The notes under the pieces are model-generated. The model was not told where the DNA came from and ran no database searches. It worked only from the letters and a program-made list of their open reading frames with translations. A stretch of DNA of 64,000 nt from Streptacidiphilus sp. 4-A2 (GTDB lineage Bacteria > Actinomycetota > Actinomycetes > Streptomycetales > Streptomycetaceae), in contig JAAFYY010000001.1 of assembly GCA_014284505.1 (NCBI GenBank), positions 7,489,845-7,553,844 on the forward strand, read 5' to 3'. Position 1 is the first letter of the stretch; each line of letters opens with the position of its first letter. Shown in pieces: positions 44,255 through 46,546 of this stretch. The translations under genes were made by a program, and so were the position numbers.

Positions 44255-45041
44255 TCAGTGCTGGGCAGGGGGCTGGGGCGGGAGTTGGGGAGGGTGATGC
44301 CGAAGTGGGTGCGGTAGGCGTCGAGCAGGGCGTCGTCGGGGAGCCGGGATTCGTGGCGGCCGTCGGCGTCGGTGCTGACCAGGGTGTCGCCACTGAGGGT
44401 GATCCGGCCGCCGGGGGTGAGCAGCGAGCAGACCAGCGAGCGGGTGAAGTGGGACTTGGGAGAGGTGCGCTGCCACCAGCAGGCCATCTCGAAGTCCGAC
44501 AGGCTCCGGGGGCGGGTCTCCAGCCGGTACTGCGGCTTGCCGTCGCACAGGACGTCCAGGTCACCGTCGGGGTCTGCTCGATCCGGAACACGCCGCTCGG
44601 GTCCTGCTGGTCGCCGCGCTCGTCGAGGCGGAGCGGGAACTCGGCGAACCGGCCGAAGCCGACGTCCACCAGCCAGGGTTGCGGGGTGTCCACGCGCAGG
44701 GCGAGGTGGTCGAACAGCGGCCCGAAGCCGTCCTCCCCGTGGACGCGGGCGGAGAGCAGGGTCACCGGATAGCCGAGGACGGTCAGCAGTGCGGCAAAGG
44801 CCCCGTTCAACTCGTAGCAGAAGCCGCCTCGTTGACGCAGGGTCAGTTTATCGGCCAGCGCCCCTGGTTCGAGCACGATCTCCTCGCCGAGGTGGACGCT
44901 GAGGTTCTCGAACGGCACGGTGCGCAGATGCCGCTGCTGAAGTTCGCGCAGGGTGGCCAGATCCGGCCGGGTCGGACGTGGGCCGCCGAGGCGGTCGAGG
45001 TAGGCCCCGGTGCGGGCAGGGCTGAGCGTGAGCTGGTCCAT
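44255..45041 (-). CDS. nat: Arylamine N-acetyltransferase (frame broken)
   Basis: About 262 aa, ATG at 45041-45039. Catalytic triad: RQRGGFCYELNGAF (Cys), GPLFDHLALRV (His), WLVDVGFGRFAEFP (Asp). Also HLRTVPFENLSVHLGEEI. Transfers acetyl or acyl groups from CoA to arylamines; in some actinomycetes related enzymes close macrolactams. A slip near 44575 joins the C-terminal half (RSLSDFEMACWWQRTSPKSH). A second slip in the C-rich end near 44285 would give TGA at 44257-44255; otherwise the frame runs into the YbjN gene. Confidence 0.88.
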
Positions 45042-45209
45042 GGCTCCGTTATGCCAGTCGGCGGGCGCCGCTGCCATCGGGCCGCGGGAGGGCGGCAGGC
45101 CGGAGCCGGCGGCCCCCGGTCGGCCGTGGGGCGTACGGCCGGAGGCGGAGCGGGGCCCGGAGCGGCGCGCTGGGGCCCGGTCGGCGGCGCGGTGGGGCTG
45201 GGAGGCGGC

Positions 45210-45256
45210 TGTGGATAAAGCGATGCGGCTGTGGATAAAACATTGCCTGCGGCAAT
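45210..45256. promoter_or_regulatory. Two DnaA boxes and a 15-bp palindrome
   Basis: TGTGGATAA at 45210-45218 and 45230-45238: both are perfect TTATCCACA DnaA boxes on the minus strand, 20 bases apart, within a GGCTGTGGATAAA direct repeat. ATTGCCTGCGGCAAT (45242-45256) is a perfect 6-3-6 inverted repeat. The segment is markedly more AT-rich than its surroundings and separates the divergent nat and IHF-like genes. The rest of 45042-45346 shows only AGGAGG at 45335. Confidence 0.7.
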
Positions 45257-45346
45257 ATTTCTCCCGGGGTAGTGTTGTTGTATGTAGGGCCGCGGGCAGC
45301 GCGTGCCGACCGTTCGGCCCCTCCCTCTCCGATCAGGAGGCGCACG

Positions 45347-45748
45347 ATGACGTGGCACAGGAGCGCCCATCAGGCCGATGCCGAACGGGACCCGGGGACC
45401 GAAGCGCCGGTCGGCGGCGGCGGCGCGGCCCGGCCCGATCCGCACACGGCGGAGCTGATCCTCGCCGCGGTGGCCACCGAGGGCCTGCCCGCGCTGACCC
45501 GGGTCATGCTGGCGGCCAGGAACGGCGACCGGGACGCGGCCGGGATGCGGGTGGGCGCGCTGCTGCGAGCACTGTCGGGGACCAGCTGGTTCACCGCGCA
45601 CGACCTGCTCAGCAATGCGGGCGTCCAGGAGACCACCACCGTCGGCGAGCTCGACCAGACCCAGCGCAGCACGCTGAGCCGCAGTCTCAGCCGGATCCTG
45701 GAGTCCTCGGCGGAGCAGGCGCCGGGCCGGGCGGCGACCGCGCAGTAG
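45347..45748 (+). CDS. Small protein resembling actinobacterial integration host factor
   Basis: Intact 133 aa, ATG 45347 with AGGAGG 6 bases upstream. Residues 70-120 (MRVGALLRALSGTSWFTAHD, LLSNAGVQETTTVGELDQTQ) align by eye to the sIHF/mIHF helix-two-turn-helix core (pattern MKVSALLESLPGVGKVRAKQ, then IMERLGISESRRVRGL) with matching hydrophobic spacing, Gly and Gln positions. The basic residues of the GVGKVRAK turn are replaced by SGTSWFTA, so DNA contacts must differ. N-terminal 40 aa are polar and disordered. Probably a nucleoid protein paralogue or a derived fold; homology is my inference. Confidence 0.6.
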   Translation: MTWHRSAHQADAERDPGTEAPVGGGGAARPDPHTAELILAAVATEGLPALTRVMLAARNGDRDAAGMRVGALLRALSGTSWFTAHDLLSNAGVQETTTVGELDQTQRSTLSRSLSRILESSAEQAPGRAATAQ

Positions 45749-45913
45749 CGGCGGCGCGGGCCGGGAAACGGGAGCGGACCTGGTTCGGCGGCGTCCGCGG
45801 CTGGGCAGTCAGGGGAACAGCAGTTCCACCGCGCGTGCCAACGGCCCGTGGTACAAAGCGAATCTGTGATCGGGGGGCGCGTGGGCGCACGGCGGGGTGA
45901 GGGGGCGGTCTCA

Positions 45914-46546
45914 GTGGCCGAGGCGGACATCGAGGCGGCACTGGCCACCTGGACGCTGTCGCATGTGGTGCGCCGCAATGGCAGACCGCTGCCGGCGGCC
46001 CATATCGAACTGGCCCGGCGGCGGATGGCCGAGCCCGGCGCGCTGCTGCTGCTCGCCCGCGCCGAGAGCGGCGAAGGCGGCGGCGAGGACAGTGAGGGCG
46101 GCAGGGGCCGCGAGAGCGGCAAGGACAGCGGGGGCGGCGCCGATGGCAGCGGTGCCGCCGGGGCCAGGGTGACCGCCGCGGTCGTCCCGGCCGCCGAGGG
46201 CGGGGACCGCGCGGCGGCGGAGTCCGGCCCGGTGGTCGGCACCATCCTCGGGGTCCAGGGGCTGGACCAGGACGGCGCCGGGCCGCCCGTGCCGGGCCTG
46301 CTGCACATATCCCTGCTCAGCGTCGCGCCGGACCGCTGGGGCCAGCACATCGGACGGCTGCTGGTCGACCAAGTCCTGGACAGCGCCTCGGCCCGGGGCT
46401 TCGAGCAGGCCCAGCTCTGGACCCACGCCGACAACCTGCGGGCGAACCGGCTGTACAAGTCCATGGGCTTCCGCCGCAGCGGCCGGGTCCGGATCGACGA
46501 CTGGGGCGAGCTGCTGGTGCACTACCGGCGCGCGGTGCGCCACTGA
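45914..46546 (+). CDS. GNAT-family N-acetyltransferase
   Basis: Intact; 210 aa from GTG 45914 (GAGGGGGCGG 5 bases upstream) or 232 aa from GTG 45848. Acetyl-CoA-binding region: LLHISLLSVAPDRWGQHIGR, LLVDQVLDSASARGFEQAQL, HADNLRANRLYKSMGFRRSG. A Gly/Ser/Glu insertion (about 46065-46165) separates strands of the core and is not typical. Substrate unknown. Confidence 0.85.
   Translation: MAEADIEAALATWTLSHVVRRNGRPLPAAHIELARRRMAEPGALLLLARAESGEGGGEDSEGGRGRESGKDSGGGADGSGAAGARVTAAVVPAAEGGDRAAAESGPVVGTILGVQGLDQDGAGPPVPGLLHISLLSVAPDRWGQHIGRLLVDQVLDSASARGFEQAQLWTHADNLRANRLYKSMGFRRSGRVRIDDWGELLVHYRRAVRH

Follow-up and report, generated by a model that had tools for sequence, protein, structure and literature searches.

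A putative MarR-type operator and a lineage-specific duplicated DnaA box at a probable rearrangement junction upstream of an mIHF/sIHF-like gene in Streptacidiphilus

Introduction

In Escherichia coli, exact high-affinity DnaA boxes and titration clusters occur on the chromosome outside oriC. These boxes are over-represented and densest toward oriC, and their enrichment near the origin was reported in favor of titration (PMC12371093). The datA and DARS elements of E. coli are also groups of DnaA boxes outside oriC. In Streptomyces, the MarR regulator SAV4189 has a footprinted 13-bp palindrome consensus, TTGCCYKHRSCAA, and operators of this type lie in the promoter region of the regulator gene and a transmembrane efflux gene (PMC6036246). 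sIHF (SCO1480) and mIHF are nucleoid-associated proteins of a family with H2TH-type homology.

Here, we analyzed an intergenic region in a 64-kb stretch of Streptacidiphilus sp. 4-A2 DNA (64,000 nucleotides, as a whole called the window). As in the E. coli clusters, its DnaA boxes are exact, of the high-affinity class, over-represented in the genome and densest toward oriC. However, there are two boxes only, carried by a 20-bp duplication that is specific to the lineage and about 0.75 Mb away from oriC, and their binding by DnaA is predicted. A neighboring palindrome fits the SAV4189 consensus at every position and lies in a promoter region, but no MarR gene adjoins it, and it probably controls an H2TH gene rather than a regulator and a transmembrane efflux gene. 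The adjacent gene resembles sIHF and mIHF by H2TH-type homology; the similarity is, however, only distant, the gene occurs patchily in the relatives (in 18 of 61 genomes), and a function like that of sIHF and mIHF is putative. A datA/DARS-like element was considered and rejected, because the locus has two boxes only and no IHF-binding site was identified; the connection to IHF is in name only, the IHF-like item here being a gene. The locus contains no new kind of system.

Results

The two DnaA boxes are placed between nat and the mIHF/sIHF-like H2TH gene, as follows.

45210-45218, minus strand: exact DnaA box TTATCCACA (exact match)
45230-45238, minus strand: exact DnaA box TTATCCACA (exact match)
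45202-45241, minus strand: 20-bp unit repeated once head to tail, with one box in each copy (18/20 identity, spacing 20)

Both boxes match the definition of the high-affinity 9-mer, TTATCCACA being the E. coli type and TTGTCCACA the Streptomyces form; the latter is given as the S. coelicolor DnaA box in a consensus table (PMC4285127). Exact TTATCCACA occurs twice in the window, both times in this pair. With at most one mismatch, it occurs 7 times against 1.57 expected, a number that no shuffle reached. The 56 bp spanning the boxes and the palindrome have a GC content of 48%, as compared with 72% for the window, and equally AT-rich 56-bp windows make up 0.16% of all. The exact boxes, the 6-3-6 palindrome and the AT-rich patch in a GC-rich region described in the initial annotation are therefore present.

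The repeat copies at 45202-45221 and 45222-45241 are 90% identical. Since the boxes lie on one 20-bp tandem repeat, they do not represent two rare events that happened independently, and their spacing of two helical turns follows from the length of the repeat unit. The two boxes probably count as a single origin event.

Box statistics for the whole host genome (G000, 9.05 Mb) were obtained by pattern searches, in which the pattern read backwards served as the control. Exact TTATCCACA was found 16 times versus 1 for the control, and TTGTCCACA 36 times versus 17. Same-strand box pairs 1-25 bp apart were detected in 40 of the 41 genomes searched, with a single control match. oriC and dnaA are located at about 6.784-6.787 Mb, and about 50 exact boxes are scattered over the chromosome, densest around oriC. 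The part of the contig no farther than 1.45 Mb from oriC, 33% of its length, holds 12 of the 13 TTATCCACA site clusters (P=1.5e-5). This limit was picked after the positions had been seen; with a limit of 0.75 Mb, P is 0.003. Given this excess of boxes and their clustering near oriC, it is plausible that DnaA is bound or titrated at the pair; the distribution over the genome speaks for titration in a general way. The best reading is that these are genuine DnaA boxes, the pair being one of many. The initial annotation had judged the exact boxes unlikely by chance; the genome-wide enrichment agrees with this.

Searches for close boxes also revealed a recurring module, in which a tandem pair TGTGGAYAA-N7-9-TGTGGAYAAC is followed within 1-5 bp by CACCC. 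It was found at 18 sites in 14 of 61 genomes and in 0 controls, and a CACCC-N4-GGGTG palindrome is present at about half of the sites. In the host it occurs at G000:C4 positions 5135849, 7420782 and 8093829 (L252, L257 and L258); further sites are among loci L241-L256. The neighboring genes vary and include rpsB and degV.

On the nat side and the H2TH side of the boxes, the following features were assigned.

44281-45041, minus strand: nat, arylamine N-acetyltransferase, in two frames (Acetyltransf_2, E=2.7e-40 and 1e-10)
45007-45241, 235 bp, no strand: junction stretch without blastn homology to G009, containing the boxes (blastn blocks)
45242-45256, core 45243-45255, no strand: palindrome ATTGCC-TGC-GGCAAT, putative MarR-type operator (SAV4189 consensus match and conservation)
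45270-45275, plus strand: probable -10 element TAGTGT of the predicted H2TH promoter (TAGTGTTG conservation)
45347-45748, plus strand: H2TH-domain gene, mIHF/sIHF-like (profile matches to mIHF 6tob and SCO1480/sIHF 4itq)
45848-46546, plus strand: gene for a GNAT acetyltransferase, on the 3' side of the H2TH gene (Acetyltransf_1, E=6e-13; same order in G009)

The nat frame is split near 44490-44560, which may be a frameshift or an assembly or sequencing error. A solute-binding protein gene (G000:C4:765351-767192) also appears split between frames, and the two splits suggest small indel errors in the assembly.

In the blastn comparison with G009, the closest relative among the genomes compared, homology stops at 45006 on the nat side and restarts at 45242, precisely where the palindrome begins. 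A DNA search for the source of the stretch in between gave only weak GC-rich matches and no homologous source. The gene order in G009 is GNAT, H2TH, MarR, an oligopeptide permease operon and nat. In the host, the MarR and permease segment is absent between H2TH and nat, and the oligopeptide permease operon is located elsewhere, at 765 kb. The H2TH-linked MarR gene was not found in the host assembly, whose estimated completeness is 76.5%; its remaining MarR genes have better counterparts, in position or in similarity, among the other MarR genes in G009 and G013 and were thus taken as paralogues. Since MarR is kept beside H2TH in other relatives too, the simplest inference from the outgroup arrangement is that the MarR-permease segment was lost in the host lineage.

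A neutral origin was also considered, in which slippage during replication, perhaps at the time of the rearrangement, copied a chance or carried-in box, and the pair has no selected function. The 20-bp tandem duplication, its place in a non-homologous junction stretch and the lack of conservation speak for this reading. However, the 16-to-1 excess of exact boxes over the reversed control makes a chance origin of the first copy unlikely, and the box is perfect in both copies, even though these differ from each other at 2 of 20 positions. We regard a purely neutral pair as unlikely.

The identity of the H2TH gene is based on a profile of 14 H2TH homologues, which matched mIHF 6tob (E=3e-11) and SCO1480 (sIHF) 4itq (E=8e-10). 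The protein of the window alone gave a weak match to Pfam H2TH_5, below the cut-off, and a search of plasmids with it gave no match. No sigma-70-type promoter or terminator was found by a scan of 45000-45400. The probable -10 element was assigned from TAGTGTTG, whose distance to the palindrome is conserved in G009 and in several further H2TH homologues. The box nearer the H2TH gene ends about 31 bp upstream of this conserved TAGTGT block.

This distance is a usual one for an activator, and the initial annotation had suggested that the boxes may couple expression of the IHF-like or nat gene to DnaA or be a DnaA-titration site. As a DnaA-dependent control site, the pair would tie a nucleoid-associated protein to the replication state. 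Other boxes in the host or its relatives are near genes such as dnaB, rpsB and degV, and G009 has one box upstream of nat, both of which are in line with such control. However, no exact box was detected upstream of 27 other H2TH homologues, including the closest one, although its promoter can otherwise be aligned. In a survey of 80 named nat loci in other actinobacteria, the sole exact box in the 600 bp upstream is 599 bp away, and none is nearer. DnaA control of H2TH or nat is therefore possible from the geometry but finds no support in conservation, and we consider it rather unlikely.

The comparison with close relatives covered 13 congeneric genomes. No box was found at the H2TH promoter of G009, and the box upstream of its nat gene is a single exact TTGTCCACA, which differs from the pair in position, number and orientation. 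Against a background density of 25 boxes per 0.92 Mb, a single box over such a length of a few hundred bp is unusual, yet it does not decide the matter; a box near nat could predate the junction. Thus, the boxes are not kept in orthologous promoters, as those of a conserved DnaA-regulated promoter would be, and as far as the compared genomes go, the pair appears to be confined to the host lineage. Such a lack of conservation in close relatives is one of the two findings that the initial annotation had named as speaking against its proposal. A literature search on nat and DnaA in Streptomyces found nothing relevant.

It is also conceivable that the H2TH promoter, having lost its local MarR gene, gained the duplicated DnaA box and with it replication-linked DnaA control. 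If true, the promoter would have been rewired from ligand-sensing repression to a cell-cycle input. We consider this very unlikely.

The core of the palindrome, TTGCCTGCGGCAA at 45243-45255, shows 0 mismatches to TTGCCYKHRSCAA, and the palindrome is the only match in the window. Since 1.3 chance matches per 64 kb are expected with at most one mismatch, the fit to the consensus is weak evidence by itself; the argument for an operator is carried by positional conservation. A palindrome scoring at least 8/10 against ATTGC-N5-GCAAT was found upstream of 16 of the 28 H2TH genes; 7 of 300 shuffles scored as high. At the equivalent position, G009 has TATTGCATACGGCAATA, followed by the same GGGGTAGTGTTG block as in the window. 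In several genomes a MarR gene diverges from the H2TH gene, with the palindrome in the space that separates them; the H2TH-linked MarR gene of G009 matches MarR_2 at 4.6e-8. Genus-wide, many ATTGYN5RCAAT sites are beside MarR genes, including two MarR genes of the host, and both sites in G009 and both in G013 adjoin MarR genes. An association of the operator with MarR genes and divergent targets was thus observed across genomes, although no MarR gene is adjacent at 45242-45256. From these comparisons, the best interpretation of the palindrome is a MarR-type operator that belongs to the H2TH promoter and whose conservation does not depend on the boxes.

The initial annotation had taken the palindrome as a partner of the boxes. 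A composite element, on which DnaA and a second factor act jointly, is extremely unlikely: the gap between the second box (ending at 45238) and the palindrome is only 3 bp, and the tandem-pair/CACCC module also joins a DnaA-box pair to a palindrome, but the palindrome here differs in sequence from that of the module and occurs without boxes in all homologues that have it. For the latter reason, the palindrome was also rejected as a DnaA-associated element.

In G002, G005, G006, G007, G008, G010 and G012 (loci L017-L020, L022, L024, L025 and L030), a MarR gene and a small H2TH gene of the mIHF/sIHF-like kind form a divergent pair and share a TTGC-N5-GCAA-like operator. This conserved pair is likely to be a regulatory module. 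No description of it was found in a literature search.

Discussion

In our judgment, it is reasonably probable that two unrelated elements meet here at a rearrangement junction, namely a MarR operator and a lineage-specific DnaA-box duplication that likely serves in titration. Loss of the MarR-permease segment would have joined the intergenic regions of the nat side and the H2TH side. A MarR dimer on the palindrome, directly upstream of the TAGTGTTG block, is predicted to repress the H2TH gene. The local cognate MarR gene would no longer exist, and a paralogue with the same operator at another place in the host genome, a candidate being the one encoded at G000:C4:777756, may act in trans. The box pair would have arisen by 20-bp tandem duplication of one exact box. 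DnaA probably binds this pair, one among the numerous boxes that the chromosome carries. The likeliest effect of the pair would be a slight help in titrating DnaA, and any effect on nat or H2TH would be at most incidental. Against this explanation, an activator could act from where the boxes lie, immediately upstream of the H2TH promoter.

This reading clarifies that two motifs do not form one element just because they lie close together. The palindrome would give a testable regulatory link, in which a MarR regulator controls mIHF/sIHF nucleoid-protein paralogues in streptomycetes. With the boxes, the chromosomal DnaA boxes for which titration is a possible role would gain one lineage-specific site.

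Another close group of DnaA boxes, TGTGGATAACCATGTGGACAA, was observed at G000:C4:6766943-6766993 (L039), adjoining a crgA-like gene. Unlike the pair at 45210-45238, the sequence of this group is kept in the congeners G001, G003, G005, G009, G011 and G013.
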